Source: Bacteroides sp. | Lineage (GTDB): Bacteria > Bacteroidota > Bacteroidia > Bacteroidales > Muribaculaceae | Reading direction: 5' to 3' | DNA length: 64,000 nucleotides | Assembly (NCBI GenBank): GCA_014802325.1 | Contig: JAAVCK010000021.1 | Coordinates: 1-64,000 of the forward strand | In this document: piece by piece, positions 39,201 to 54,352 of the stretch | Numbering within the stretch: the stretch's first letter is position 1 | Layout of the letters: the number at the start of each line of letters is the position of its first letter | Program-made: the position numbers and the translations under genes | The notes under the pieces: generated by a model | What the model saw: only the letters and a program-made list of their open reading frames with translations | The model's database searches: none | What the model was told of the DNA's origin: nothing

Positions 39201-41111
39201 ATCGCCGTTATACACTAAATCCCCCTCAATATGCACGCCCGTAAGATTCTCATAGGGCGTATAAGCGACATAAGCAGTGGTGGGTACATTCGTGAAACTC
39301 GGCTTTGACTTCGTAGACGGATACATAAATTTCTTTATGTTGGTACAATCCTGGAATGAGTTAGATGTCGAACCATACGTAACATTCCGTCCAACCATTA
39401 CAAATTGCAAGCTCTTAACTCCGGCAAAAGCATAACTTCCAATAGTTTTGATATCAGGTAAAAAGAGACAGGTTAATTCTTGAATATTTGTATTATTAAA
39501 AGCATAATTACCGATATTCTCTAATTGAGTAGGCAAGTTTACCGAAGTAAGATTGCTGGCATTATAAAAAGCATAATCACCGATCGAAGTCACGGAAGAA
39601 GGGATTGTCACCGATTCAAGGCCGGTACATTGTTGAAAAATTCCCTTCCCAATTATCTCCAATTGAGGCAAGTCTATCGAAGTAAGATTGGTGGCATTAT
39701 AAAAAGCATAATCACCGATTGAAGTCACGGAGACGGGGATTGTCACCGATTCAAGGCCGGTGCAGCCGCCAAAAGCACCGCTTCCGATCGTGGTGACAGT
39801 ATTAGGCACTTCAAATTCCGCTTCGCTATAGTCGGGCATCAAAGCCACCAGAATGTTGCCATCGGTGCTGTACACCAAATCGCCCTCTATCTTCACACTC
39901 ATAAGATTCTTATCGGGCGTATAAGGTACATAAGCAGTGGTGGGCACATTCGAAAAACTCGGCTTCGACGTTGTGGCCGGATACATATACTTCTTTATGT
40001 TGGTACATTCCTCGAATGAGTAAGATGGCACACCATACGTCCCATACCTAATATTTGATCCAACCATTACAAATTGTAAGCTTTTAACTCCGGAAAAAGC
40101 ATAATATTCAATGTTTTTAATTTTAGGCAAAACGAGAGAGGTTAAGTTTTGAATATTTGTATTCTGAAAAGCTGCACGGCCGATTATCTCTAATCCAGCA
40201 GGCAATTCTACCGAAGTAAGATTGGAGGCGTAATTAAAAGCATATTCACCAATTTCAACTACTGATTCGGGTATTACAATTTGCTCAAGTCTGCCATTAC
40301 TCCTTGCTGCATATTGATCAATTTTTGTGACGGTATCAGGGAACTTGACTTTTTGAACTAAATCAGAGATACAATACACAGTAGTTTTATCGGAATTGTA
40401 TAATATTCCATCCTCATATACTACTTCATCGGCGTTATATTGAAAGAAATATGAAGGAGAAAAATTCTTATTAAATGGCCAAGTTACTGTTGATGGATAG
40501 AATACAAATGTTGGGGGATAATTAGGTGCAGACGTATCAAAGGCGTTTGAACTTATTGAAACATCACCCGATAGAATGAGAAGTTTGTCTACATTCATAC
40601 TTGTAAAGGCATAGTTTTTAATTGTTTTAACAGAAGCAGGAATGGTTAGACTACTTAACTTACAACTATTAAAAGCGTTAACACCAATAGTTGTCACACC
40701 CTCCGGAATCCGGATGTAAGTTAAATTAGTACAGGATTGGAATGTATAGTCCGCAATCTCTGTTAACGACGTGCTTAACTGACAGGAAGCCAAGGCCGAG
40801 CAGGACGAAAAACAAGAATTACCTACCGAGGTGATAGTATTGGGCATGACCACCGATTCTATCACCGTGTTATTTTGGAAAACCTTGTCTGCGATGGAGG
40901 TGACGGTGTAGGTGGTGCCGGAGTCGGGATCGGTGACAGTTTCTGGAATAACGACTGCGCCTGTAGCCGAAGCGCCGCCACCTGTAAGGGCGCAGGTAGT
41001 GCCGTCGGAATTTGGAGTGTATTCAAGAGTGTTACCTTCATGTTCGAAGGTAAAGGCCATACCCGGAAGGGCAATGAGCAGGCCCAAAAGTGCGAGTAAT
41101 AGTTTTTTCAT
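36249..41111 (-). CDS. BspA-like leucine-rich-repeat surface protein with Ig-like (Big_2) domains
   Basis: The 1620-residue protein has a signal peptide (MKKLLLALLGLLIALPGMA). About 1,100 residues of LRR_5 repeats follow, with a unit like LESVTIPSSVTSIGDYAFYNAS of about 23 residues. A Big_2-like stretch is interrupted by a Glu/Gly-rich linker; three full Big_2 domains (each with TITWTSSDEAVATVGEDGVVT-type strands) come next. A short tail, VYTIDGRLAA...GLARGVYIV, resembles a type IX secretion sorting signal. It is probably a surface adhesin. Residues about 250-700 are a tandem duplication. The coding DNA for the N-terminal third is clearly more AT-rich than the rest, suggesting a mosaic origin. 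Confidence 0.9.
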   Translation of the reverse strand: MKKLLLALLGLLIALPGMAFTFEHEGNTLEYTPNSDGTTCALTGGGASATGAVVIPETVTDPDSGTTYTVTSIADKVFQNNTVIESVVMPNTITSVGNSCFSSCSALASCQLSTSLTEIADYTFQSCTNLTYIRIPEGVTTIGVNAFNSCKLSSLTIPASVKTIKNYAFTSMNVDKLLILSGDVSISSNAFDTSAPNYPPTFVFYPSTVTWPFNKNFSPSYFFQYNADEVVYEDGILYNSDKTTVYCISDLVQKVKFPDTVTKIDQYAARSNGRLEQIVIPESVVEIGEYAFNYASNLTSVELPAGLEIIGRAAFQNTNIQNLTSLVLPKIKNIEYYAFSGVKSLQFVMVGSNIRYGTYGVPSYSFEECTNIKKYMYPATTSKPSFSNVPTTAYVPYTPDKNLMSVKIEGDLVYSTDGNILVALMPDYSEAEFEVPNTVTTIGSGAFGGCTGLESVTIPVSVTSIGDYAFYNATNLTSIDLPQLEIIGKGIFQQCTGLESVTIPSSVTSIGDYAFYNASNLTSVNLPTQLENIGNYAFNNTNIQELTCLFLPDIKTIGSYAFAGVKSLQFVMVGRNVTYGSTSNSFQDCTNIKKFMYPSTKSKPSFTNVPTTAYVAYTPYENLTGVHIEGDLVYNGDNSILVAMMPDYSETEFEVPNTVTTIGCSAFVGCTGLETVTIPSTVTSIGDYAFQKLTKLASLSLPASVETIGNYAFDGCTGIVSDLVIPEKVTSIGNYAFQNCNNIPSLSLPSSLENIGNYAFYNCRGIASELTIPASVTSLGTYAFSGCSKIPSLKIVANITELPGALFYNCSCLTSAKLPGGITSIGSSAFYGCSALSEVTLPETLTAINGSAFYNCKKLNNITLPDNLATLGTNAFYGCAALEAINIPEKITTIPNYAFQNCTALSSVSLSEGLVTVGQSAFNGCTALKSIDFPTSVTTIQANAFTGAGLEALFLAENIKTVGNKAFSSCLGLKSVFVGCSAILPTGTNNPFDGCTNIIKAAYPSTMTNPFTTALAVAFNPESANYKDGVVYGEGLETILFVRTDLEGDYHAPASVNEIGAYAFYGCDRLTDVVLAPTVSYIGTNAFQNSSLSTLAIGEDCTYIGANAFDGTELTDIYITAQTPPAIKSNSFANYNATVHVQGKEASRLYKKSKVGWANFKNYVLMDAPTGMTHSEERYVIGEPGETFQLSAQLEGDDLDFPTIYWYSTDPEVATVDQNGLVTIMGEVEQPEEGEEVNPALLASDVDSTGEGGETGGGEEGVEEGGEPEPDPVPAKPTCNIVARSLYSGFSYTVQVNDSEFEVETITLNYHEMTIEAGGTLQLEVTFEPTDATDKTITWTTSDESVATVGADGLVTTLKPGNAIITATAGNGEEDECEITVVPVPTVEITAISLNHTEATLYPEDTLQLVVSYDPENATDKTITWSSSNTEVATVDENGLVTAHTDGSTVIMAITVNGINAECAVTVSKKAIPAEGIILSSEVEELTVGDTVELTATVTPVDTTDPTITWTSSDEAVATVGEDGVVTAVGEGEATITATCGNVKAECTVIVSSTTTGIASVNGEDNAVKVINGEIVTAGAADVYTIDGRLAARSEDGRIKGLARGVYIVVTNGMSVKILL
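39082..40215 (-). repeat. Tandem duplication inside the bspA-like gene, period about 660-670 bp
   Basis: The segment starting at 39082 (GTCACCG, AGGCCTGTGCAGCC) recurs 660 nt later at 39742 with high identity, through GTCGGGCAT, GCAGTGGTGGG and TTCTTTATGTTGGTACA landmarks. Both copies encode the same order of LRR units and a VPTTAYV.YTP linker. A smaller 135-bp duplication (about 39544 and 39679) lies within it. Confidence 0.85.
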
Positions 41112-42054: not shown

Positions 42055-42624
42055 ATGCTGAAGACAATTGAGCCTCGATTTGGTTCGTCGGTCAATGTGA
42101 CTGACGATAGCGAAGCATGCCCGAAATCCTGGATAGCCCTCTACACGCGGCCCAGAAGCGAGAAGAAAGTCAGGGCTTACCTTGACAGCATAGGTATGGA
42201 AAATTACCTTCCGGTTCAATATCAGTTAAGACAGTGGTCGGACAGGAAGAAGCTGGTCGAGGTAGTGGTAATCCCTATGATAATATTCGTATCGGTAGAT
42301 AGACCCGATAGTTTTAGACAACCGGCCAATCCGCTGATCATAAAGCCATTATATCAAATAGGAGATGGTAAGAAACTTGCAGTGATACCCGACAGTCAGA
42401 TCGAGCAGCTCAAGTTTATCCTGGGACAGCAGGACTATCCGGTGACTTTCGATCCCGACATTTTCAAGGTCAATGACAAAGTCAGGGTGGTGAGAGGCCC
42501 GTTGATGGGATTGACAGGAGAGATCGTAAACTATGATGACAGATATTTAGAGCTTGCAGTCCCGATTGGAATCAGAGGGGCCGCCAGACTCAGTATAGAA
42601 AAAATTAATGTAGAAGTGCTTTGA
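42055..42624 (+). CDS. UpxY-family (NusG-like) transcription antiterminator
   Basis: The 189-residue protein has an N-terminal NusG-type domain (SWIALYTRPRSEKKVRAYLDSIGMENYLPV) and a C-terminal KOW motif (VNDKVRVVRGPLMGLTGEI). This is the layout of UpxY proteins, which are usually encoded first in Bacteroidales capsule operons and let RNA polymerase read through the leader of their own locus. No UpxZ partner follows. Its position, a promoter and short leader ahead of glycan genes, fits that role. The product is longer than bare NusG domains only by an N-terminal tail of about 25 residues. Confidence 0.88.
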   Translation: MLKTIEPRFGSSVNVTDDSEACPKSWIALYTRPRSEKKVRAYLDSIGMENYLPVQYQLRQWSDRKKLVEVVVIPMIIFVSVDRPDSFRQPANPLIIKPLYQIGDGKKLAVIPDSQIEQLKFILGQQDYPVTFDPDIFKVNDKVRVVRGPLMGLTGEIVNYDDRYLELAVPIGIRGAARLSIEKINVEVL

Positions 42625-42652: not shown

Positions 42653-43255
42653 ATGAAACATCAGTTTTTAATGCTAATTGCAGCCATCTGCCTGTCAGGT
42701 GGAAAGGTACACGCGCAGACCTCGGAAACAGTGAATCCCGGGCATGCATTCCAAGTTTCAGCTTTTGCCGGAGCCAACAGTCAGACTTCCAAAGATTTTG
42801 GAGTAGAGGGTGTATGGAAAAAGAATATCCATACCAATCTCTTCATCAACTGCGGTCTGTCATTGGGTATGGACTATACCAACACAGTCAATAAGTATAG
42901 CAACAAGCGCAATATGCTTGAGGTAGGCGTTCCGGTTCAGCTCGAATGGAGCAAACTTTCATTTGGCAAGAGTTCATTCTATGGCCTTGTAGGTTTTTCA
43001 CCGGTATTTTATTCGACCCTGAGCGCCAGGGCCTGGAGCGCTTCAAGCAACGCCATGATAAAGGATGCTAAAAAATCAGGCTGTGTCATCGCTCCCACTA
43101 TAGAGGCCGGCGGCAATATTCCGTTGCAGAACACCCTCATCCGCATCGGTGTATTTTACAAATCCAAAATTAACTGCACTCCCGACGGATATAACGTATA
43201 CCGCCACGTGGGAGGTCTCAACTTCATAGGTCTGAAGGCTGGCGTTATATTCTGA
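42653..43255 (+). CDS. Secreted beta-barrel-like protein, unknown function
   Basis: The 200-residue protein has a signal peptide (ending KVHAQ) and alternating strands such as FQVSAFAGANSQTSKDFGVEGVW, LFINCGLSLGMDYT, LEVGVPVQLEWS and a terminal FIGLKAGVIF. It looks like a small outer-membrane barrel. It sits between upxY and the flippase on one transcript, so it may be part of polysaccharide export or attachment, but no known export family (Wza, Wzi) is recognisable. Confidence 0.65.
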   Translation: MKHQFLMLIAAICLSGGKVHAQTSETVNPGHAFQVSAFAGANSQTSKDFGVEGVWKKNIHTNLFINCGLSLGMDYTNTVNKYSNKRNMLEVGVPVQLEWSKLSFGKSSFYGLVGFSPVFYSTLSARAWSASSNAMIKDAKKSGCVIAPTIEAGGNIPLQNTLIRIGVFYKSKINCTPDGYNVYRHVGGLNFIGLKAGVIF

Positions 43256-43266
43256 TCAGCCACGAT

Positions 43267-44802
43267 TTGAGTATCTTCAACCGGTCGACGTCAACTTCAC
43301 TCATCGCCAGAAATACCCTGATGCTTTACATCAGGATGTTTCTGGTAATGGGCGTTTCGCTATATACATCGCGCATAGTCCTCAGCCAACTGGGCGCGGT
43401 GGACTACGGTATATACGGTGTGGTGGGAGGCATAATCGTGATGCTGTCGTTTCTTAACGGAGCGATGTCGATGTCCACAGTCCGCTTCCTGTCATTCGCC
43501 CTCGGGAAGGATGATACGGAGCGGGCGGGACGGATATTCCGTACGGCGATAGCCATCCACGTCATCCTGTCGCTGATAATCGTGCTGTCGGCTGAAACGC
43601 TCGGATTGTGGTTTCTGAATCATTATATGAGGATTCCCCACGATCAGCTTTCGGCCGCCAACATGGTGTTTCAATGTACGGTGGTTTCTTTTGTATTTGC
43701 CATCCTCCGCACTCCGCTCAGCGCCGTGATCGTGGCCCGCGAACGGATGGAAGTATTTGCTGTCATGGGCGTTCTGGAGGTAGTGTTGAAGCTGATAGTC
43801 GCACTGTCGCTCACTTTACTGACGGCTGATAAACTTGAGGCGTACGCACTTCTCAATCTGGCTACCGCAGCCATTCTGACTGTGGCACATCTCATATATT
43901 GCAGGCGACACTTCCCCGAATGCCGGTCAATCCGCGCCGTATATGATAAAGAGCTGTTCCGACCCATGACCGGATTCATGTCATGGAGCACGATCGGTAT
44001 GCTCTCGTGGGTGGGGAAAAGTCAGGGCTGCAACATTTTGCTGAATCTATTCTTCGGGCCGACGGTAAACGCCGCCTACGGTCTCTCATCTCAGGTAAAC
44101 ACCGCCATCAACGGTTTTGTACAAAATTTCACTACGGCTATCAACCCTCGGATCACCAAGACATTTTCAGCCAACGATATCAGACATACCGAAAGCCTCA
44201 TCATATACGGATGTAAATTTTCCTTTTACCTGCTGCTGATAGTATCGTTCCCTATTCTGATGGCCACCGAACCTATTCTCACTTTCTGGCTCGGAGACTA
44301 TCCCGCCTATACACCCGTGTTCATCAAATTAGTATTGATCATCTCTCAGATTGAAAGTTTCAACTATTGCATAGGCGCAGCGATAAGAGCTACAGGCCGG
44401 GTGAAGGTTTATGAAATCGCTATTGGCGGCATCCAGCTGCTCAGTCTCCCCGTGGCCTATATACTATTGCGCCACGCGATGCCGCCGCAATCGGTCTTTG
44501 TCGTTATCGCGCTACTTTCATGCATCGCGCTGGCAGTCAGGCTGAGGCTGCTTAAGATGTATATTCCCGAAATTTCAATTTCCGGAATTTTACACTCGGT
44601 ATTTTTACCATCGGGACTGATTTCAGCAGTATGCGCTCTGCTTTACGCCGGCTACCGTCATCTGGAATTGATCACAACTTTCAATCCGATAATCACCATA
44701 GCGGGAAGTATGGCGACAGTGATCATTCTTGAGATCGGTATCGGGCTGAACGGAAAAGAACGTAAGAGCATCTTTCAGACTGTGGTCAAAAGGATTGCAT
44801 GA
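43267..44802 (+). CDS. Polysaccharide flippase (Wzx-like, MOP superfamily)
   Basis: The 511-residue protein has about 12-14 membrane helices. The family start is ARNTLMLYIRMFLVMGVSLYTSRIVLSQLGAVDYGIYGVVGG. It should flip the lipid-linked repeat unit across the inner membrane. The start is a TTG at 43267; the first in-frame ATG (43321) would cut into the first helix. It begins 11 nt after the barrel gene and is followed at once by the NodB-like lipoprotein gene. Confidence 0.9.
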   Translation: MSIFNRSTSTSLIARNTLMLYIRMFLVMGVSLYTSRIVLSQLGAVDYGIYGVVGGIIVMLSFLNGAMSMSTVRFLSFALGKDDTERAGRIFRTAIAIHVILSLIIVLSAETLGLWFLNHYMRIPHDQLSAANMVFQCTVVSFVFAILRTPLSAVIVARERMEVFAVMGVLEVVLKLIVALSLTLLTADKLEAYALLNLATAAILTVAHLIYCRRHFPECRSIRAVYDKELFRPMTGFMSWSTIGMLSWVGKSQGCNILLNLFFGPTVNAAYGLSSQVNTAINGFVQNFTTAINPRITKTFSANDIRHTESLIIYGCKFSFYLLLIVSFPILMATEPILTFWLGDYPAYTPVFIKLVLIISQIESFNYCIGAAIRATGRVKVYEIAIGGIQLLSLPVAYILLRHAMPPQSVFVVIALLSCIALAVRLRLLKMYIPEISISGILHSVFLPSGLISAVCALLYAGYRHLELITTFNPIITIAGSMATVIILEIGIGLNGKERKSIFQTVVKRIA

Positions 44803-44803
44803 G

Positions 44804-45694
44804 ATGCGTCGAGATTTAATAATCCTTGCGGCGGTGTTGATTACATCCCTCATGTGCTCATGCGGCAGAGACCGCCGAGGCGAAGTCACAGGTGGCAACA
44901 AAGTGGTACACCTCAGTATCGACGATGTCGAGGTGTTTGGCGACCTGATCAGGCATCAGCAGGATTACGACTCTCTGTTCCAACATCCTTTCATGGCTTT
45001 TCTGCAGGAATTGCACAGCGGATATGGTATGCGTGTCACACTCTACACATACGAATCTTTCGGCGACATATACCGTGACGACTCTACCCGCATTGAGGAT
45101 ATGCCGCAGAAATACAAGAGTGATTTCCGGAGGGCATCTGATTGGCTGAGAATAGGTTTTCACAGTCCACGAGCCAAATTCGACTCCATTGTCACGGTAA
45201 CGGAATTCAGGGATTCATATAATAATGTAAACTCGGCGATCGCTCGATTTGCCGACTCCTCAATGATTGCCTCTACACTTAGGCTCCACTATTTCTTTGC
45301 GCCTGATTCGCTATTGAAAGTGTTGACAGGTGTCAGGACTCTCCTCTGTGCCGACGATAAAGACCGCTTATCATATAATCTCACGACTTCTGAAGCCAAG
45401 ACCGTGTGGAATCGAGTGAGAATCACAAAGAACGATATTTCGTACATAAGGACCGATTTAAGGATTGACGGCAATCCCGGAGTACTCGATGACTTGAGAC
45501 ATCCCGGGACTGGTGACACGCTCGTGGTGTTCACCCACGAGTGGGAACTATGGCATAATCCCGAAACCGACAGCACCCGGGGCATAGCCGGAAAAATCAA
45601 AATCCTTACTTCAGAGTGCGTAAATAAAGTGTTATTTAAAGAAACCGTCAAACGTCTCTATGAATACGGATATGACTTCTCCTTCCTCGAATAG
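44804..45694 (+). CDS. Lipoprotein with a polysaccharide-deacetylase (NodB)-like fold
   Basis: The 296-residue protein has a lipoprotein leader (ILAAVLITSLMCSC). Its motifs resemble NodB deacetylases: VVHLSIDDVEVFGDL (like TFDDG), LRIGFHSPRA (metal His) and VVFTHEWELW (catalytic His motif). The usual HxxxH is reduced, so activity is uncertain. The ORF track starts at a TTG; the ATG at 44804, one base after the flippase stop, is better. It likely acts in the periplasm on the polysaccharide. It overlaps the radical SAM gene by 35 nt. Confidence 0.65.
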   Translation: MRRDLIILAAVLITSLMCSCGRDRRGEVTGGNKVVHLSIDDVEVFGDLIRHQQDYDSLFQHPFMAFLQELHSGYGMRVTLYTYESFGDIYRDDSTRIEDMPQKYKSDFRRASDWLRIGFHSPRAKFDSIVTVTEFRDSYNNVNSAIARFADSSMIASTLRLHYFFAPDSLLKVLTGVRTLLCADDKDRLSYNLTTSEAKTVWNRVRITKNDISYIRTDLRIDGNPGVLDDLRHPGTGDTLVVFTHEWELWHNPETDSTRGIAGKIKILTSECVNKVLFKETVKRLYEYGYDFSFLE

Positions 45695-46808
45695 AGACAG
45701 GCTGAAAAGATATTTCGATGTTTACGTGCCGGTGACCGCATGTAATCTCCGGTGCAGTTATTGCTACATCACTCAGCTTCATGTCGCGGCCAAAGAGGTG
45801 AAGCCTCTCAAATACAGCATTTCTCACATCCGCAAGGCGCTTTCACTTGACCGTATGGGAGGAAAGTGCTTGCTGAGCCTATGCGCCGGAGGTGAAACTC
45901 TATTGGCTCCATATATAGTGGAACTGACGCGTGAACTGCTTGATGAGGGTCATTATGTCATGCTTGTCACTAACGGGCTGCCGACCGCGTGTATCAAGGA
46001 ATTGACAGAAAATATACCGCCTGAGTTGCAAAAGCATCTGATACTTAAGATTTCCTTTCACTTTATGGAACTGAAATCAAGAGGTCTGATTGACAAATAT
46101 TTTGCCAACATCCGTATGATCGAGCGCAGCGGCATTTCGTTTACAGTCGAGCTCACACCCTCCGACGACGCAATCCCATATATCGATGAAATTAAAGACG
46201 TGTGCCTTAAAAACTTAGGTGCGCTATGCCATGTCACGGTAGCGCGGGAGGAAAGCAAGCCCGGGATTCCTATACTAACTGCGCTCTCTCGCGAGGATTA
46301 TATCAAGGTGTGGGGGCAGTTTGACTCCCCGCTGTTCGATTTCAAGATGAAGATATTCGGACAATCGCGTAAGGAATTCTGCTATAATGGTCTTTGGGGA
46401 GGATGCATAAATCTTGAGACCGGATCTATTTCGAAATGTTACCGTTTGAGACCGACGGGAATTTTTGACAATACTTCGGCTCCCATTGATTTCTGCCCGG
46501 TGGGGAAATGTGAAAAGGCTCACTGCTACAACGGCCATGTATGGCTTTCGCTCGGGATGATTCCCGAACTCGACACTCCCGTATATACGGAGTTGCGCGA
46601 CCGTGTCACAGCTGATGGAAGACACTGGGTAGGACAGGAGATGCGCCTGTTTCTCAGCCAGAAGTTAGCGGATAATAACGAGCAGCTTTCAGCTCGCTCC
46701 CGACAGCAGTTAATACTCAGAAATAGCTTCGATAATGTGCTCTTTTCGCTGAGAAGACGCATTTCCGGAATCATCCACAGATGGCGACAACTTTTGATGA
46801 AAAAATAA
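45660..46808 (+). CDS. Radical SAM protein with a C-terminal Cys-rich (SPASM-like) region
   Basis: The 382-residue protein has the CxxxCxxC motif as CNLRCSYC (Cys28, 32, 35), followed by GGETLL, the SAM-binding GGE element. A Cys-rich C-terminal part (FCYNGLWGGC, SKCYRL, FCPVGKC, AHC) resembles the extra iron-sulfur sites of SPASM/twitch enzymes. No peptide precursor is nearby. It could modify a sugar or lipid intermediate, but there is no recognised match. Starts at 45660 or at the ATG at 45672; overlaps the next gene by 28 nt. Confidence 0.82.
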   Translation: MNTDMTSPSSNRDRLKRYFDVYVPVTACNLRCSYCYITQLHVAAKEVKPLKYSISHIRKALSLDRMGGKCLLSLCAGGETLLAPYIVELTRELLDEGHYVMLVTNGLPTACIKELTENIPPELQKHLILKISFHFMELKSRGLIDKYFANIRMIERSGISFTVELTPSDDAIPYIDEIKDVCLKNLGALCHVTVAREESKPGIPILTALSREDYIKVWGQFDSPLFDFKMKIFGQSRKEFCYNGLWGGCINLETGSISKCYRLRPTGIFDNTSAPIDFCPVGKCEKAHCYNGHVWLSLGMIPELDTPVYTELRDRVTADGRHWVGQEMRLFLSQKLADNNEQLSARSRQQLILRNSFDNVLFSLRRRISGIIHRWRQLLMKK

Positions 46809-47755
46809 AGCAGCTCAGGCGATCGGTCACCGATTCCATAAAGCCTCTGTTAAGTGAAAGGGTCATTATTGCCGATGCTCCATATTACGAAAATATTGGA
46901 GACGTGCTTATATGGCGAGGCGCAACGGATTTCCTTCAAGAAAATGATATAAAACTCCTGAATACCTACGGAGCGGGGTTCTTCCCCTTCCCTACTCTTG
47001 ATAAAGACGTCACAATCTTACTGACGGGGGGAGGCAACTTCGGAGACCTATGGCGTGATTTTCAGGAATATCGACTTGAAATCATTGCCCGATATTCCGG
47101 GAATAGGATTGTCATGCTTCCGCAATCAGTATGCTTTCAGGATAAGGGCTTGATCGAAAAAGACGCTGACCTGATGGCCCGGCATCCCGACCTGCATCTC
47201 TTTGCCCGTGATCAGGCAAGCTACGACATTCTGTCAAGACACTTCAGCCGAAATCATATCTATCTTGCACCTGATATGGCATTCTGCATCGACTCCCTGC
47301 TTTTGGAGCAGCATCGGAATCATGAGGAGGAGAAGACTCTTTTTCTACTTCGATCCGATAAAGAACTTCCCGAGGGCACGCCGCGGGCTTTGCAAGAGGC
47401 CGATGTGACATCTGATTGGCCTAAGCCTGCGAATCTTGATTTATTAATACGAAATCTCAAGAGAGGGCGGAGAATCTCAAGAGAGCTGCGACGCCGCGGC
47501 ATTCGCCTGAGACCTCTTGACAGTGTAATCGGATTTTTTGGCAACAGATTCATCCGCGATTCTTTGACCGGACGGGGGTGTGAGTTCCTGCGACCATTCT
47601 CGCGCATTGTCACCACACGTCTTCACACTATGATTCTGTCAGTACTTCTCCACAAGCCAGTGGAATATATTGACAATACCTATGGCAAATTATCAGCCTT
47701 TGCCGCGACTTGGCTTCACGATCTACCTGAGGTAAAAGCCTATGGAAGAGATTAA
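46781..47755 (+). CDS. Polysaccharide pyruvyl transferase family protein
   Basis: The 324-residue protein has the family landmarks YYENIGDVLIWRGATDFL, LLTGGGNFGDLWRDFQEYR and IVTTRLHTMILSVLLHKPVEYID. Members transfer pyruvate from phosphoenolpyruvate to sugar hydroxyls, forming acidic ketals; some instead act as glycosyltransferase-like proteins. It would give the polysaccharide a negative charge. It overlaps the radical SAM gene upstream (28 nt) and the first GT2 gene downstream (14 nt). Confidence 0.88.
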   Translation: MATTFDEKIKQLRRSVTDSIKPLLSERVIIADAPYYENIGDVLIWRGATDFLQENDIKLLNTYGAGFFPFPTLDKDVTILLTGGGNFGDLWRDFQEYRLEIIARYSGNRIVMLPQSVCFQDKGLIEKDADLMARHPDLHLFARDQASYDILSRHFSRNHIYLAPDMAFCIDSLLLEQHRNHEEEKTLFLLRSDKELPEGTPRALQEADVTSDWPKPANLDLLIRNLKRGRRISRELRRRGIRLRPLDSVIGFFGNRFIRDSLTGRGCEFLRPFSRIVTTRLHTMILSVLLHKPVEYIDNTYGKLSAFAATWLHDLPEVKAYGRD

Positions 47756-48713
47756 AGTATCCGTAATCATTCCAATTTTCGGCGTGGAGCCGTATATTGA
47801 GAGATGCGCACGCTCTCTGCTGGGACAGACTATGCGTAGCGGCATCGAATTTATATTCGTCGATGACTGTACCCCCGACAGGAGTATTGAGATCCTGCGT
47901 AAAACTCTTAAAGAATATCCCGAACGATATGCTCAGGTAACGATACTGACTCATTCCGCCAATAAAGGATTGGCCGCTGCACGCAAAACCGGAGTTAGCG
48001 CCGCAAGGGGAGAATACATCATTCATTGCGACAGCGATGACTGGGTGGAGCCGGATATGTGCTGGCTTATGTATCAAGAGGCGAAACTCACCGACTCCGA
48101 CATTGTGGTCTGCAACTATATAAATGAATACGAAGGCTCTTCCGAGACTGTGATTCAGGATTTTAACCCTTCCAAGCGTAATCAGATTATTGATTTGCTG
48201 AATTGGCGAATGCATTGCATGGTATGGCTGAGGATATTCCGCCGCTCATTTTATGTTACATTCGCAATGGACACCCCGAATATCAACCGTGGCGAAGATT
48301 TCCCGGTTTCGTTACTTGCGCACGTGCTGAGCTCGCGCGTGAGCTATTTAAGGGCGCCGCTATATCACTATAACCGTACAAATCAAGAATCAATGACTCA
48401 GCGTCACACCCGGAAGGATTATGACGATGCCGTGGAGTCGTGGAGCTATATCAGAGACTTTATCACCTCTTTGCCCGAGGATAAAGAGGTGAGGTCCGCC
48501 CTAAACCGTCAGCTTTCCAGAGTCAGGAACAAAATGCTGAGGTACAAGGAGATTTATGACATGACACGGTGGCGAACCTTATGGCCTGAACTGAAACTTG
48601 AGGATTGCAGAAACTTTCGGTCAAAGGTATTGGTGGCAATGGCGCGATTGAGAATGGATTTTATATTGAGGTTATTGCTTAAAGACAATGCCTCCGGCAT
48701 AAATCAGTTTTAG
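47742..48713 (+). CDS. Glycosyltransferase family 2 (first of three)
   Basis: The 323-residue GT-A enzyme starts VSVIIPIFGVEPYIERCARSLLGQTM, then FVDDCTPDRS, NKGLAAARKTGVSAARGEYI and the DSDDW metal motif. A C-terminal helical region follows. It should add one sugar to the lipid-linked repeat unit at the inner face of the inner membrane. The N-terminal half is closely similar to the next two genes, suggesting tandem duplication. The sugar is unknown. Confidence 0.9.
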   Translation: MEEIKVSVIIPIFGVEPYIERCARSLLGQTMRSGIEFIFVDDCTPDRSIEILRKTLKEYPERYAQVTILTHSANKGLAAARKTGVSAARGEYIIHCDSDDWVEPDMCWLMYQEAKLTDSDIVVCNYINEYEGSSETVIQDFNPSKRNQIIDLLNWRMHCMVWLRIFRRSFYVTFAMDTPNINRGEDFPVSLLAHVLSSRVSYLRAPLYHYNRTNQESMTQRHTRKDYDDAVESWSYIRDFITSLPEDKEVRSALNRQLSRVRNKMLRYKEIYDMTRWRTLWPELKLEDCRNFRSKVLVAMARLRMDFILRLLLKDNASGINQF

Positions 48714-48714
48714 A

Positions 48715-49728
48715 ATGGAAAATATTGCTATATCAGTGATTGTCCCGGTGTATGGCGTTGAAAAATTCATCGAAAGGTGTGCGCGCTCAATTTTCGGGCA
48801 GACCATGACCGACGGGGTGGAATTTATCTTTGTGAATGACTGCGCGACAGACCGCAGCCTCGAAGTGCTGACAGCCATTATTGATGAATATCCGCCTCTC
48901 AGTTCGCAAATAAAAATAATAAATCATCTCTGCAACCGAGGTCTTGCAGCTGCCCGCAAGACGGGTCTCGAAGCTGCCCGGGGTGAATATATTCTCAATC
49001 TGGACAGCGATGACTATTTTGAGCGTGATATGCTTGAGGTGATGTATAAGGCAGCCAAGGATACGAATGCCGACGTTGTTGTGTCAGACTATTTTATGAC
49101 AACCAAAAAAGGGGATCGATATCAGGAATGCCCCCTCTACGACACCAGGGAAGCTATCTTAAGGAGTATCATAACTCCTTGGCGATATGGTAACAAAACA
49201 ATAGGGCCAAGCGTATGGAACAAACTCATCAGGAGAAATCTCTACACTGACCACAGCATAATCCCAATCGAGGGAATAAACTATGGTGAGGATTTCATCA
49301 TATCCATGCAGATTTTGTATTATGCGGACGTAATCACAAAAGTTGACCGTGCATTCGTGCATTACAATAAGCTGAATTCCGACTCATATACTCAAGATAA
49401 GTCGGCCTCGAATTGCCGCCAGAGATTGAAAGCAACAGAAACCGTGGCCGGCTTCCTTGCCCGGAAAGGATGTGTATTTGACGAGGAGTTTGACGAACGG
49501 AGATTCTGTGAAAAAATGATTGCCGTAACCAATTGCGATTCAGCCGATCTCGGGGAGTTTCTCCCGATGTATCCGTGGCTCGATTATGAGAAACACAAGC
49601 AGCTTATAGCGCGACACTGGCGGCTTCCCTATAAATTCGCGCTGCAAGGCGACAGGACGATGTTCGTTTTCCTGCGCAATCTGCTATTACCAATCCGAAG
49701 AATATATCGATTCATATATGACCGCTGA
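48715..49728 (+). CDS. Glycosyltransferase family 2 (second of three)
   Basis: The 337-residue GT-A enzyme has IAISVIVPVYGVEKFIERCARSIFGQTMTDGVEFIFVNDC, NRGLAAARKTGLEAARGEYILNLDSDDYF and GEDFIISMQILYYAD. It begins 1 nt after its paralogue's stop. Its C-terminal half differs from the first and third copies, as expected if each recognises a different acceptor or sugar. It overlaps the third copy by 11 nt. Confidence 0.9.
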   Translation: MENIAISVIVPVYGVEKFIERCARSIFGQTMTDGVEFIFVNDCATDRSLEVLTAIIDEYPPLSSQIKIINHLCNRGLAAARKTGLEAARGEYILNLDSDDYFERDMLEVMYKAAKDTNADVVVSDYFMTTKKGDRYQECPLYDTREAILRSIITPWRYGNKTIGPSVWNKLIRRNLYTDHSIIPIEGINYGEDFIISMQILYYADVITKVDRAFVHYNKLNSDSYTQDKSASNCRQRLKATETVAGFLARKGCVFDEEFDERRFCEKMIAVTNCDSADLGEFLPMYPWLDYEKHKQLIARHWRLPYKFALQGDRTMFVFLRNLLLPIRRIYRFIYDR

Positions 49729-50725
49729 ACCTAATATATCAGTTCTTGTACCTGTCTACATGGTTGAGCGCCACATCGGCCGTTGCGTCCGCTCTCTTTT
49801 CGAACAGACGATGACCGATGGAGTGGAATATATTTTCGTTAATGACTCCACCAAAGATCGGAGCATGGATATTCTCCTTGAGCTTCTGGCCCGATACCCT
49901 TCCAGACAGTCACAGGTAAGGGTGATAAACCACCGAGAGAATTTGGGACTTGCCGCGGCAAGGATTACTGCACTCGATCTTGCCAGAGGAGAATATGTGA
50001 TAAATCTTGACAGCGATGATTTCTTCGAACATGATATGCTCGAATGTATGTATGACGCCGCAAAGAGAAATAATGCTGATGTCGTCGTCGCGGATTATTA
50101 TTTGTACTACAAAAGGCGGGAAATATATATTTTCTGTCATATCGACAGTGATAAGGACCGGCTTGTCGGAAATCTCATTTGCGATAATGGAGGGTGCGGG
50201 CGAATGGTATGGAATAAATTGATAAAACGCGACTTATATGAGAAATATTCCGTGAGACCTTTGCCCGGCTTGAATATCGGAGAAGATATGATAGTGACTG
50301 CACGGCTCTTATTTCATGCCGCTTCGATATGCAAGGTTGACAGGGCGTTCGCCCACTATAACAAAAGCAATCTCGACACCTACACTTCCTCCCCCCGATA
50401 TCAGGAAATATTGAAGCGCTTCATTGTATGCGATTTTCTATCGGATTTTTTCGGCGGGCAGTCGCGTGAAATATCAGAAGCCATCAATCGTCATCGCTTC
50501 CAGATCAAAGCCTTGGCTCTTACCTACTCACCCCGCGGGACTCAACATCAGGTTCTTTCCTATCATCCTCAACTGACGTATGATAAATATTATCAGGAGC
50601 TGGCGTGGTATTGGCGATTTCCGCTAAGATTAGGATTCAACGGCTACCTGAGGTCCTTTAACGTGATCAGATACATACTCTTTAAATTCCGGACAATATA
50701 TCGATATTGTCGCGACTTACGCTAA
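49718..50725 (+). CDS. Glycosyltransferase family 2 (third of three)
   Basis: The 335-residue GT-A enzyme has ISVLVPVYMVERHIGRCVRSLFEQTMTDGVEYIFVND, NLGLAAARITALDLARGEYVINLDSDDFF and GEDMIVTARLLFHA. Copies two and three share VDRAF.HYNKSN-type residues around the middle, and the ends both finish FRTIYRY/IRRIYRF. The next gene starts 105 nt downstream, and that gap holds nothing I recognise. Confidence 0.9.
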   Translation: MTAEPNISVLVPVYMVERHIGRCVRSLFEQTMTDGVEYIFVNDSTKDRSMDILLELLARYPSRQSQVRVINHRENLGLAAARITALDLARGEYVINLDSDDFFEHDMLECMYDAAKRNNADVVVADYYLYYKRREIYIFCHIDSDKDRLVGNLICDNGGCGRMVWNKLIKRDLYEKYSVRPLPGLNIGEDMIVTARLLFHAASICKVDRAFAHYNKSNLDTYTSSPRYQEILKRFIVCDFLSDFFGGQSREISEAINRHRFQIKALALTYSPRGTQHQVLSYHPQLTYDKYYQELAWYWRFPLRLGFNGYLRSFNVIRYILFKFRTIYRYCRDLR

Positions 50726-50830: not shown

Positions 50831-52111
50831 ATGACCCCAATCGTAAGCATGACTTTAATGAGCATCAAGCGGTTACTGATCTTGATTTTCCCGGTCAGCG
50901 TAATCGTTGATTTGATATCAGGCTTTTGCACTGTTCAGCTCCACACATACATACCCATAGGTCAGGCTTACAGGTTCATCATAATGGCTGCTATAATATA
51001 TATGCTGCTAAAAAGAGCAAGACCCTTGCTCGCATGGATGATACTGTGCCCGATTTCGTTCTTCTTACTTGCATCTTCTTTCTGGATAATTATACACGGA
51101 TTTGAACCTGACAACGGTTTCAGCCCTGCAATAGAGATCGAGAGTTTCAGCAAGATCCTATATTTCATGCTCGTTATCACATTCTTTATTTTATATCGTG
51201 AAGAAATCGGATTGCTTGATCCGCTGAAGATAATTTCAAATTACGGAATGATAATTTCTTCGGCCGTGCTTATTTCGTTCCTGACCGGATTCGGAAACAG
51301 CACCTACGGGACTGACTATGGATTCGGCTCCAAGAGCTATTTCAAGGCGGGAAATGATCTTGGATTAACAATCCTGTACTCTGCGGTAGTAAGTAGTCTA
51401 TATATGATTTCGGGTTTCGATTGGAAACGCATGGTCAAGCTACTGATTATCTCATCAGCTGTCATTTTGATCGGAAGCCGTGTAGGCCTTGTAGGAATTT
51501 TACTTTGGCTCACCATACTGGTGTGTTACATTGTGTTTATCTATCGACCCGCTGACCGCAGGATACGCCGACGATTCCGTCATTATAGACCGATAATCTT
51601 CACATGCTACATTCTCAGCGTGAGCGGAGTGATTTATTATCTGCTGTCAGTTTTCGACAGCTACATGCTGTTCAAGTACACAAGCGTCGGCCTGCGTACC
51701 GCGCGCAGCCTTCTTACTGATCCTGCGGAGGTGTACATCAGCAAATTCGAATGGTATGAAGCGGTATTCGGCAAAGGCATGGCGGCCCTCTATTATTTCG
51801 TTGCACATTCAGTCAGATTTCGGGCCGACTACCGCATGGTGGAAGCTGATTTTCACGAATTGCTTGGCGGTTACGGCATCATCGGATTTATCTTGATCCT
51901 CTCGCCGTTTGTCTACTTCATGTTTAAGGCTCTGACACGATACTTTTCACATCCCGATTTCACACTCTTCGCTATACTTTTCGTGACCGGATCTTTTCTT
52001 GCCGTGGCCTTCACGGCAGGACACTGCCTCCGCAACCCGATGGTCGCACCAATCTACGCCTACATCGTATCTCAATTGTATTATGGGAAAGAACGTCCTG
52101 TTGATAAATAA
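50831..52111 (+). CDS. O-antigen/capsule polymerase-like (Wzy-type) membrane protein
   Basis: The 426-residue protein is strongly hydrophobic with about ten membrane helices and a large periplasmic loop (about residues 270-350). That loop carries FGKGMAALYYF, and ADFHELLGGYGIIGFILIL follows it, resembling Wzy/WaaL-superfamily proteins where such an H-x-L-L-G stretch precedes a late helix. It would join repeat units in the periplasm. Such polymerases diverge strongly in sequence, so the call rests on topology and context. Its end overlaps the next gene by 29 nt. Confidence 0.8.
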   Translation: MTPIVSMTLMSIKRLLILIFPVSVIVDLISGFCTVQLHTYIPIGQAYRFIIMAAIIYMLLKRARPLLAWMILCPISFFLLASSFWIIIHGFEPDNGFSPAIEIESFSKILYFMLVITFFILYREEIGLLDPLKIISNYGMIISSAVLISFLTGFGNSTYGTDYGFGSKSYFKAGNDLGLTILYSAVVSSLYMISGFDWKRMVKLLIISSAVILIGSRVGLVGILLWLTILVCYIVFIYRPADRRIRRRFRHYRPIIFTCYILSVSGVIYYLLSVFDSYMLFKYTSVGLRTARSLLTDPAEVYISKFEWYEAVFGKGMAALYYFVAHSVRFRADYRMVEADFHELLGGYGIIGFILILSPFVYFMFKALTRYFSHPDFTLFAILFVTGSFLAVAFTAGHCLRNPMVAPIYAYIVSQLYYGKERPVDK

Positions 52112-53144
52112 CGGCTATCCTTCTGAGCGGCATCCCCAATACACTACTTACATCAGGAGCATTGAGGATTGCCTCATCGCTTCGGGCCTGAATGTCGAAA
52201 AGCTGGTAATCAGATACGACCGTCACATCACGCCCCTGTATAAACTCTACAAATATTTCCTATTCTGGATTAAGTGCCTCACAATCCGTACCGACTGCGA
52301 CACCATCTACATCAACCATCTGCCATTTGCATTGCCAATAATCCTTAACCCCTCGTTAGCTCGTAAAAAGCTGATAGTCCATTGGCATGGCAATGACCTT
52401 GCAGGCTACAACAAGTTCGTAAAATTTGCCTCCCGGTTTCTCGGCCGGTTCGTCTCCAAGGCTCACAATATCGTACCGTCACTTTATTCCGGCCAAGAAC
52501 TGACGGCTCGCTACGGTAATCACGGTCTGCGCGTTTCGGTGAGCCCGAGCGGTGGAGTAGACATATCAAATTTTTCTCCCGCCAAGACTATCCGGAAAAA
52601 GTTTGTGATCAGTTATGCGAGTGAACTGAAAAGAGAGAAAGGCATCGGCATATTCCTCTATCTGATCAACAACAGGAAGGAGATCGAGCGGCTTACAGGG
52701 CGCTCCATTGAATTTCACTACGTCAAATATGGCTCCGAACTCGCCGGCTATCTTCCCGTGCTCGATCAGTATGATAAAAATATAGTGAAAGGCTTCGACA
52801 AGATGCTGAAAGATGATGTGCCGGCATTTCTGAATTCTACCGATCTGCTTGTTTTTCCTTCACTCCGCGACAGCCTCGGATTAACGGCTCTCGAAGCTAT
52901 GAGTTGCGGAGTGCCGGTCGTGGCTCACAATATCTGTGCTTTCCCCGAATATATAAAGTCAGGAGTATCAGGTGAACTCGTAGAGTTAAAAGACTCTGAA
53001 AGTGAGCAAAACAGGGAGTTTTTGGACATGGTGGTGAAAGTTGTCAATAATAGAGATTCCTATACCCCAAGACAGATAGTTGAGGCTAACTATTCGCGAG
53101 CCTCGGTGATTTCTTTTTACCGTAAATTATTTGAAACCTTATGA
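52083..53144 (+). CDS. Glycosyltransferase family 4-like
   Basis: The 353-residue GT-B enzyme begins MGKNVLLINNGYPSERHPQY, has YASELKREKGIGIFL (donor-binding region) and the C-terminal FPSLRDSLGLTALEAMSCGVPVVAH, the nucleotide-sugar E-x7-E-like motif. It transfers one sugar with retained configuration. The ORF-track start (51999) lies within the polymerase gene in another frame; the ATG at 52083 fits the family. It overlaps the next gene by 4 nt. Confidence 0.9.
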   Translation: MGKNVLLINNGYPSERHPQYTTYIRSIEDCLIASGLNVEKLVIRYDRHITPLYKLYKYFLFWIKCLTIRTDCDTIYINHLPFALPIILNPSLARKKLIVHWHGNDLAGYNKFVKFASRFLGRFVSKAHNIVPSLYSGQELTARYGNHGLRVSVSPSGGVDISNFSPAKTIRKKFVISYASELKREKGIGIFLYLINNRKEIERLTGRSIEFHYVKYGSELAGYLPVLDQYDKNIVKGFDKMLKDDVPAFLNSTDLLVFPSLRDSLGLTALEAMSCGVPVVAHNICAFPEYIKSGVSGELVELKDSESEQNREFLDMVVKVVNNRDSYTPRQIVEANYSRASVISFYRKLFETL

Positions 53145-54352
53145 ACCAAGCAGTAGTGTCGCTTTCGAAACTTCAAAAATACTGCGAGGCGGAGGATTTC
53201 AAGGGTTGGGATCCATTCGATGGACTCAATTCGCGGATATTCAATGCCCTGCCTATGCTGAAAAGGTCAGCGCTATGCCGCTTGATTATGATACAGCTGT
53301 TCAAGCGGAATCCCGTTAATCTAAGGAGAATCGCTGCAGTACCCAAGCAGTATAATCCCAAAGCTATCGCATTATTTCTTTCAGGCTATTGCAATCTTTA
53401 TCATGCGATTGAATCGGCACCGGAACTGCAAAATGCTTTCGGGCAAAAACAGACAGTGAGATTAACGATTGACAGACTTGCGCGCCTATTGCTGTCGCTA
53501 CGTTCGAAAGGCGACTATCACGGTGCCTGCTGGGGCTATAACTTCGACTGGCAGTCAAGAAGGGCATTCCTTTTTCCGGCTCATACTCCTGTGGTAGTAG
53601 TCACGGCATTCAGCGCATCGGCCCTTTTCGATGCCTATGAAATAACGGGTGAGAAGGAATATCTCGATGTGGCTTTGTCGTCAGCGCGATTTGTAATCGA
53701 CGACCTTCACCGCACTCCTTTCGGGCGCGGGTTTCTGTTCTCCTACTCCCCGCTCCCCGGAAATGATACGGTATTCAATGCCTCCCTCCTCGGAGTAAAG
53801 ATTCTATGCCTCTGCTATAAATATACCGGAAATCCCGAATACCGCCACATTGCCTCGCAGGTAGTGCAAGCCGCGTGTGATGGTCAACGTCCTGACGGAG
53901 GATGGGTGTATGGATTGCGTCCCGTGCAGTCTTGGATCGATTCATTCCATACAGGCTATAACCTTGACGCTTTGAATACTTACAGGACTCTGACGGGCGA
54001 CAGAACGTTTGACTCCAACATTGAGAGAGGATTGGATTTCTATATCAATAATTTCTTCAAGGAGGATGGAACTCCAAAGTATTATCATGACAGGACTTAT
54101 CCGATAGACATTCACTCACCCGCCCAACTATTGGTGACACTTTCCAATATGAATCAACTGTCTCGTTACTGCTGCCTGGCGGACAAGATAGTGGACTGGA
54201 CTATCAGGAACATGCAGGATAAGAAAGGATATTTTTACTACCAGATAAAACCGCTTATAAGTAGTAAAATCTCATATATGAGATGGAGTAATGCATTTAT
54301 GTTTAACGCATTATCTAATTACGTCAAAAAATATTATTGTAATAACGAATAG
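53141..54352 (+). CDS. (alpha/alpha)6-toroid protein of the polysaccharide locus
   Basis: The 403-residue protein has repeated helical hairpins with GDYHGACWGYNFDWQSRRAF, ASLLGVKILCLCYKYTGNPEYRHIA and DGGWVYG, as in six-hairpin glycosidase-like proteins. Similar proteins in Bacteroides capsule loci are often mislabelled delta-aminolevulinic acid dehydratase. Lyase, hydrolase or epimerase activity is possible; no catalytic residue can be fixed. There is no signal peptide, so it is cytoplasmic. It is the last gene of the locus; a promoter for murB follows. Confidence 0.65.
   Translation: MNQAVVSLSKLQKYCEAEDFKGWDPFDGLNSRIFNALPMLKRSALCRLIMIQLFKRNPVNLRRIAAVPKQYNPKAIALFLSGYCNLYHAIESAPELQNAFGQKQTVRLTIDRLARLLLSLRSKGDYHGACWGYNFDWQSRRAFLFPAHTPVVVVTAFSASALFDAYEITGEKEYLDVALSSARFVIDDLHRTPFGRGFLFSYSPLPGNDTVFNASLLGVKILCLCYKYTGNPEYRHIASQVVQAACDGQRPDGGWVYGLRPVQSWIDSFHTGYNLDALNTYRTLTGDRTFDSNIERGLDFYINNFFKEDGTPKYYHDRTYPIDIHSPAQLLVTLSNMNQLSRYCCLADKIVDWTIRNMQDKKGYFYYQIKPLISSKISYMRWSNAFMFNALSNYVKKYYCNNE

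Follow-up and report, generated by a model that had tools for sequence, protein, structure and literature searches.

What does a radical SAM enzyme do in a bacterial capsule locus, where its gene lies between those for a flippase and a polysaccharide pyruvyltransferase and overlaps the gene for a lipoprotein? SPASM/Twitch enzymes often modify peptides, and the original prediction, made from the sequence of a 64,000-nucleotide stretch of DNA from a Muribaculaceae bacterium (Bacteroides sp., contig JAAVCK010000021.1, positions 1 to 64,000; hereinafter, the window), envisaged instead that the radical chemistry targets a sugar or lipid carrier, with the lipoprotein as a periplasmic, deacetylase-like partner. 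Such chemistry is still the best reading of the sequence data, although the analysis described here assigns the enzyme to a different class and gives it a different main partner.

Organization of the locus

The locus follows the UpxY-type capsule pattern, with the transcription antiterminator gene in the first position followed by genes for a flippase, glycosyltransferases and a polymerase (Table 1); neither an initiating phosphoglycosyltransferase nor a nucleotide-sugar gene is present between positions 42055 and 54352. No sugar-modifying enzyme other than the pyruvyltransferase and a GH88-like protein accompanies the radical SAM enzyme in the locus. Pfam searches verified the identity of both genes reported to flank the pair, the flippase and the pyruvyltransferase, and the two ORFs indeed overlap by 35 nt. 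Because the only possible starts of the radical SAM gene ahead of the protein core are ATG 45660 and ATG 45672, the overlap with the lipoprotein gene amounts to either 35 or 23 nt. A second overlap, absent from the original prediction, connects the radical SAM gene with the pyruvyltransferase gene. Across the loci compared, 16 of the 30 neighboring pairs of NodB-like and radical SAM genes overlap, and 9 more are separated by no more than 30 nt. The overlap in the window suggests translational coupling of the lipoprotein and radical SAM genes.

Table 1. Features of the polysaccharide locus in the window
Feature	Coordinates	Strand	Evidence
UpxY-family transcription antiterminator, head of locus	42055..42624	+	NCBIfam NF033644, 127 bits vs cut-off 100
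Outer-membrane beta-barrel-like protein	42653..43255	+	Weak Pfam OMP_b-brl, under cut-off; neighbor cluster 11
MATE/Wzx-type flippase	43267..44802	+	Pfam MatE 7.8e-9
NodB-like lipoprotein, unnamed family, 296 aa	44804..45694	+	Predicted fold, conservation
Lipoprotein/radical SAM ORF overlap, 35 nt	45660..45694	+	Sequence
Radical SAM enzyme, predicted Twitch-type C-terminus, unnamed family, 382 aa	45660..46808	+	Pfam Radical_SAM 5.3e-8
CX3CX2C radical SAM cluster motif (C28, C32, C35)	45741..45764	+	Invariant 68/68
Predicted single auxiliary-cluster motif C241-X13-G255-X4-C260 + C284-X4-C289	46380..46526	+	Four Cys, fixed spacing, invariant 68/68
Basic C-terminal tail of radical SAM enzyme, net charge +8	46674..46805	+	Mostly one predicted helix (345-381)
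Radical SAM/pyruvyltransferase ORF overlap, 28 nt	46781..46808	+	Sequence
Polysaccharide pyruvyltransferase (PF04230)	46781..47755	+	Pfam 7.7e-28, 98.6 bits vs cut-off 25.3
Family 2 glycosyltransferase	47742..48713	+	Pfam 4.5e-30
Family 2 glycosyltransferase	48715..49728	+	Neighbor cluster shared with 47742..48713 glycosyltransferase
Family 2 glycosyltransferase	49718..50725	+	Neighbor cluster shared with 47742..48713 glycosyltransferase
Wzy / O-antigen ligase-like membrane protein	50831..52111	+	Pfam O-antigen_lig 1.7e-23
Family 4 glycosyltransferase	52083..53144	+	Pfam Glycos_transf_1 5.4e-18
GH88-like protein	53141..54352	+	Pfam Glyco_hydro_88 1.6e-8

The gene for the barrel-like outer-membrane protein, located between the UpxY and flippase genes, also precedes the flippase gene in about 10 related loci. 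The GH88-like protein at the end of the locus yields weak matches to glucuronyl C5-epimerases and has no obvious signal peptide; instead of being a hydrolase, it may modify glycans in the cytoplasm. Just upstream of the locus, the other strand (36249-41111) encodes a 1620-aa protein with repeated leucine-rich-like and bacterial Ig-like segments.

The radical SAM enzyme and the NodB-like lipoprotein

The enzyme belongs to the radical SAM superfamily, as indicated by a Pfam match over the cut-off, the CX3CX2C motif in all 68 relatives, and a partial TIM barrel in the AlphaFold model (pLDDT 93.6). The window protein reached the cut-off of none of the named NCBIfam radical SAM models (viperin, HpnH, STM4011, NirJ, MoaA, RiPP maturases), the best match being to viperin (35 bits, compared to a cut-off of 180), and the 68 relatives produced equally scattered weak matches (best E-value 3e-13, from E-values only). 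The rank of viperin, which is also weakly matched by 66 of the 68 relatives, could point to a prokaryotic viperin-like antiviral enzyme residing in the capsule locus by chance, but this is exceedingly improbable: the match is far under the cut-off and confined to residues 26-107, whereas the C-terminal auxiliary cluster site is invariant across the family, which occurs in the context of glycan loci. A sequence search against solved structures gave no useful match for either the radical SAM or the NodB-like protein, and the NodB-like profile retrieved chance matches only. The idea of a phage family was rejected because viral sequences gave just 12 radical SAM matches (23-34%), all weak and generic.

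Foldseek comparison of the radical SAM model retrieved SPASM/Twitch enzymes, with TM-scores that were modest overall (0.4-0.5), including the peptide-acting SuiB, anSME and SkfB along with the sugar- or nucleotide-acting BlsE, DesII, MoaA and viperin. The SPASM motif, CX9-15GX4C-gap-CX2CX5CX3C-gap-C, comprises seven Cys and two auxiliary clusters (PMC6231123). This full motif is not found in the 68 relatives, in which the invariant part is limited to four Cys, those of the first half of the motif (CX13GX4C in 67 of the 68) and of CX4C. Because the four invariant Cys represent the first half of the SPASM motif only, the protein is classified from its sequence as Twitch-type, with a predicted single auxiliary cluster, so that the label 'SPASM-like' given in the original prediction should be replaced by Twitch: all 68 relatives have one four-Cys auxiliary site. 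An extra Cys (Cys75), directly preceding the GGE motif, is invariant among the 68 relatives as well. Furthermore, the C-terminal tail is basic, with a median charge of +8 compared to 0 elsewhere in the protein and a charge of at least +3 in 69 of 69 sequences; its amphipathicity is weakly above that of shuffled sequences (median p 0.2).

A four-Cys auxiliary site and a single Twitch domain are also characteristic of BtrN, the radical SAM dehydrogenase of the butirosin pathway (PMC9012708, PMC6231123). The BtrN site is an auxiliary [4Fe-4S] site, and the enzyme oxidizes an aminocyclitol, a sugar-like alcohol, by two electrons (PMC9012708). However, BtrN ranks low among the fold matches (4m7t, E = 2e-3), and its substrate, in an antibiotic pathway, is a free cyclitol. 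BlsE and DesII, whose radical chemistry targets a sugar linked to a nucleoside or nucleotide, are among the fold matches of the window enzyme but share a low identity with it (11-15%) and likewise come from antibiotic pathways; in addition, the second cluster motif proposed for BlsE is CXCX2C (PMC3715490), as opposed to C-X18-C ... C-X4-C in the window enzyme.

The lipoprotein falls into no Pfam or NCBIfam family, and a Pfam search with 24 NodB-like members yielded one weak match to Polysacc_deac_1. According to the AlphaFold model (pLDDT 88), the protein adopts a NodB-like fold, with CE4 esterases and ArnD as the top Foldseek matches (probability 1.00, E = 8.7e-6, i.e., about 1e-5; TM by query 0.43-0.49). 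The original designation of the lipoprotein as NodB-like is thus borne out by the predicted fold but not by Pfam and NCBIfam, to which the family is invisible. The residues conserved in the family are H36-x-S38-x-D40-D41, H71, H120, R160, T217 and H245. When these residues are assigned by eye to the NodB motifs, with motif roles taken from PMC10967932, the Asp-Asp of CE4 (MT1) is kept in 23 of the 23 sequences with letters at this site, one MT2 His (H120) is kept, an Arg is invariant and the His of a THEW motif could represent MT5; there is no counterpart to the second metal His or to the MT3 Pro. Hydrolase activity is uncertain because the missing residue is the second His of the His-His-Asp metal site. 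The retained motifs, like the fold, are shared with CE4/NodB esterases and with ArnD, which also acts on a sugar in envelope assembly (PMC10967932). The family nevertheless departs from these enzymes in the two missing residues, the missing Pfam match and the unusual conserved H36 and H71, and ArnD, unlike the unnamed lipoprotein, has a family of its own.

The window lipoprotein has a hydrophobic N-terminus with a Cys (a lipobox, as judged by eye), and most family members have a hydrophobic N-terminus, whereas several have none, with a stop codon just upstream. The periplasmic location originally attributed to the lipoprotein thus does not hold for every relative, as several have no signal and one is fused to the cytoplasmic radical SAM enzyme. 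Given that signals are missing in several members and that the flippase-fused domains described below would lie outside, the side of the membrane on which the NodB-like domain works seems to differ between organisms. In a genome that gave no radical SAM match, a secreted relative with a twin-arginine-like signal (L136:1064-2230) is the neighbor of a xylose-isomerase-like gene, so the NodB-like family extends beyond polysaccharide synthesis.

Partners of the radical SAM gene across genomes

One genome per species was scanned, which yielded 163 radical SAM relatives, and the best 80 loci were studied; partner counts refer to 79 loci with a callable gene, the window included, from nine phylum-level groups, with genes called by a simple ORF rule and neighbor clusters built automatically. 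The near-constant partner of the radical SAM gene is the pyruvyltransferase gene, which in 72 of the 79 loci is either fused to it or no more than three genes away, and in 60 is adjacent or fused; in 3 of the 7 remaining loci, a probable fragment of it, recognized by eye, lies at a contig end. The pyruvyltransferase gene is found one position downstream of the radical SAM gene in 43 loci and one position upstream in 16; on a quick, approximate tree, the order has changed at least 9 times. Because adjacency outlasts rearrangement, these observations point to a functional link rather than to inheritance of one operon. The NxGD, GGG and RxH motifs of the pyruvyltransferase are invariant in 64 relatives. 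The neighborhoods include glycosyltransferase clusters in 69 of the 79 loci and a flippase or ABC exporter cluster in 51, and the arrangement that had been regarded as an oddity of a capsule locus turns out to be a module represented in nine phylum-level groups. Carriers of the radical SAM gene include the cultured species Bacteroides bouchesdurhonensis (L074), which lacks a NodB-like gene in the neighborhood, and Odoribacter lunatus (L073). In several loci, the radical SAM gene is adjoined by fusions of a family 2 glycosyltransferase with PF04230 (cluster 18, e.g., L090:5833-7818), and one locus contains a tandem pair of divergent radical SAM copies followed by NodB-like and pyruvyltransferase genes (L083:1455-3899).

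As originally noted for the window, there is no sign of a precursor peptide: any given short ORF is shared by at most two of the 79 loci, and the median gap between the radical SAM gene and its same-strand neighbors is 5 nt upstream and an overlap downstream. Homologs were found in polysaccharide loci and not beside ribosomal-peptide precursors. The presence of SuiB and SkfB among the best fold matches would fit a RiPP maturase with a precursor that is unusual or encoded elsewhere, but we consider this very unlikely because the loci lack both a recurrent small ORF and gaps large enough to hold one, the context is glycan assembly throughout, and the window protein scores under every RiPP NCBIfam cut-off and has no N-terminal RRE-like extension, its core beginning at about residue 17 in the model.

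The role of main partner that had been assigned to the lipoprotein is not upheld. A NodB-like gene is located within three genes of the radical SAM gene in 38 of the 79 loci and none is nearby in the other 41, with at least 18 changes between presence and absence on the quick, approximate tree. The strongest distance correlations are those of NodB-like proteins with flippases (r = 0.94, 18 loci) and with radical SAM proteins (0.80, 31 loci), both values including shared ancestry. Gene fusions connect the same set of proteins. A locus from an Akkermansia MAG (L112) encodes a single 764-aa protein with PF04230 and Radical_SAM domains, and a Helicobacter bilis isolate (L123) encodes a 612-aa protein that combines a NodB-like N-terminus with a radical SAM domain. 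In three other loci (L080, L111 and L116), the NodB-like domain is fused to the C-terminus of the flippase via an extra hydrophobic segment, and the positive-inside pattern, with the topology assessed by eye, would put this domain outside. Taken together, the fusions join the same four functions pairwise, each being a single draft sequence in which an assembly error is possible.

Within a set of 247 Muribaculaceae genomes, the pyruvyltransferase subfamily is present in 23, the radical SAM gene in 18 and the NodB-like gene in 13. The distribution is nested: the NodB-like gene is accompanied by the radical SAM gene in each of its 13 genomes, and the pyruvyltransferase is found in 17 of the 18 genomes with the radical SAM gene, the lone exception (G022) showing a fragment at a contig end. 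The hypergeometric P values are 2e-20 for the co-occurrence of radical SAM and pyruvyltransferase genes and 6e-18 for that of radical SAM and NodB-like genes, in agreement with the expectation that the latter pair would co-occur; both values ignore relatedness and overstate independence because the genomes are related. The nesting suggests that each later gene (pyruvyltransferase, then radical SAM, then NodB-like) depends on the earlier one, without fixing the order of the reactions. Across the order, the module is rare, with the radical SAM gene in 5 of 393 genomes, the NodB-like gene in 3 and both in 2. The radical SAM gene is optional, as it is missing from some pyruvyltransferase loci, where no consistent replacement was detected: the genes differ between loci, and one pair has no Pfam family. 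In two such loci (L129:5455-6276 and L130:7637-8455, minus strand), the radical SAM slot is filled by a gene whose product has an NCCxCEKC motif and no Pfam family; a small unassigned ORF lies ahead of it.

The co-occurrence of the NodB-like and radical SAM genes bears on another possibility, namely, that the radical SAM protein is a maturase of the anSME kind that oxidizes a residue of the NodB-like protein prior to its export. This would account for the carriage of a radical SAM gene by every Muribaculaceae genome with a NodB-like gene, for the fusion in Helicobacter bilis and for the conserved Ser38 beside the Asp pair, and anSME is among the fold matches. Nonetheless, such a maturase appears quite improbable because the constant partner is the pyruvyltransferase, the 41 loci mentioned above have no NodB-like gene nearby, 5 of the 18 Muribaculaceae radical SAM carriers, with near-complete genomes, contain no NodB-like match anywhere at E <= 1e-5, and the secreted relative L136, from a genome in which nothing matched the radical SAM protein, retains the Ser.

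A proposed role in glycan tailoring

A role in glycan tailoring is well supported by the genomic context. As the overall explanation we favor, with moderate confidence, a glycan-tailoring module in a Wzx/Wzy-type surface-polysaccharide locus that modifies the lipid-linked unit alongside pyruvylation. CsaB and WcfO, two characterized pyruvyltransferases, use phosphoenolpyruvate as the donor and lipid-linked disaccharides as acceptors (PMC6801904, PMC13063421); the pyruvyltransferase of the window belongs to the same family, PF04230, and WcfO comes from a Bacteroides capsule locus. Fusion or adjacency of the radical SAM and pyruvyltransferase genes, together with the basic tail, would be most simply explained if both enzymes act on the same lipid-linked unit. 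It is less likely, although deserving consideration, that the substrate of the radical SAM enzyme is, as for DesII, a free nucleotide sugar that has yet to be transferred, and that the adjacency reflects the modular, cassette-like assembly of capsule genes: DesII and BlsE are among the fold matches and other sugar-modifying enzymes are scarce in the window locus, but the pyruvyltransferase fusion, the adjacency maintained despite reordering and the basic tail would then be unexplained.

The sequences show how the genes are organized and fused, which motifs and predicted folds the proteins have, and that the partnership is conserved and the occurrence nested. For the favored modification of the lipid-linked unit, we infer the following scheme, including its substrate, reaction, order of steps, cluster content, membrane contact and catalysis by the radical SAM and NodB-like proteins. 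The radical SAM enzyme would act in the cytoplasm, next to the pyruvyltransferase, on a repeat unit still attached to the polyprenyl carrier, probably being held at the membrane by its basic tail. The 5'-deoxyadenosyl radical that it generates would abstract a hydrogen atom, either from the sugar or from the attached pyruvyl group, and an electron would probably be passed to the four-Cys auxiliary cluster, as in BtrN. The net result would be a two-electron oxidation, e.g., a dehydrogenation or a decarboxylation; oxidation of the sugar or pyruvyl group is proposed because such a cluster goes with two-electron oxidation in BtrN. The flippase would then export the modified unit, and the NodB-like lipoprotein, where present, may hydrolyze a group off the product, usually after export, outside the membrane. 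More tentatively, with the chances somewhat against it, this widespread Twitch radical SAM family might act directly on pyruvylated polyprenyl-linked units, for example, by converting the ketal or sugar into a new residue, with the NodB-like protein completing the modification after export.

In the literature searched, no radical SAM enzyme was tied to a pyruvyltransferase or a NodB-like partner in polysaccharide assembly, which is weak evidence given the thin coverage of subscription journals, and the word 'radical' is absent from a review on pyruvylation (PMC6801904). The components are of known kinds, whereas their combination and both subfamilies appear to be undescribed. To our knowledge, very few enzymes of pyruvylation have been characterized, and we know of neither a characterized pyruvyltransferase with a radical SAM partner nor a pyruvyltransferase partner of BtrN.

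Capsules mediate host recognition and phage adsorption, and from the conserved pyruvyltransferase/radical SAM/NodB-like trio of gut bacteria, one would predict that these structures carry a sugar residue still to be discovered. The unnamed radical SAM and NodB-like families, both tied to pyruvylation, gain a concrete functional proposal, which suggests that bacteria tailor their surface sugars by radical chemistry. If the proposal is correct, radical chemistry on pyruvylated, polyprenyl-linked units would represent a new kind of step in the assembly of surface polysaccharides.
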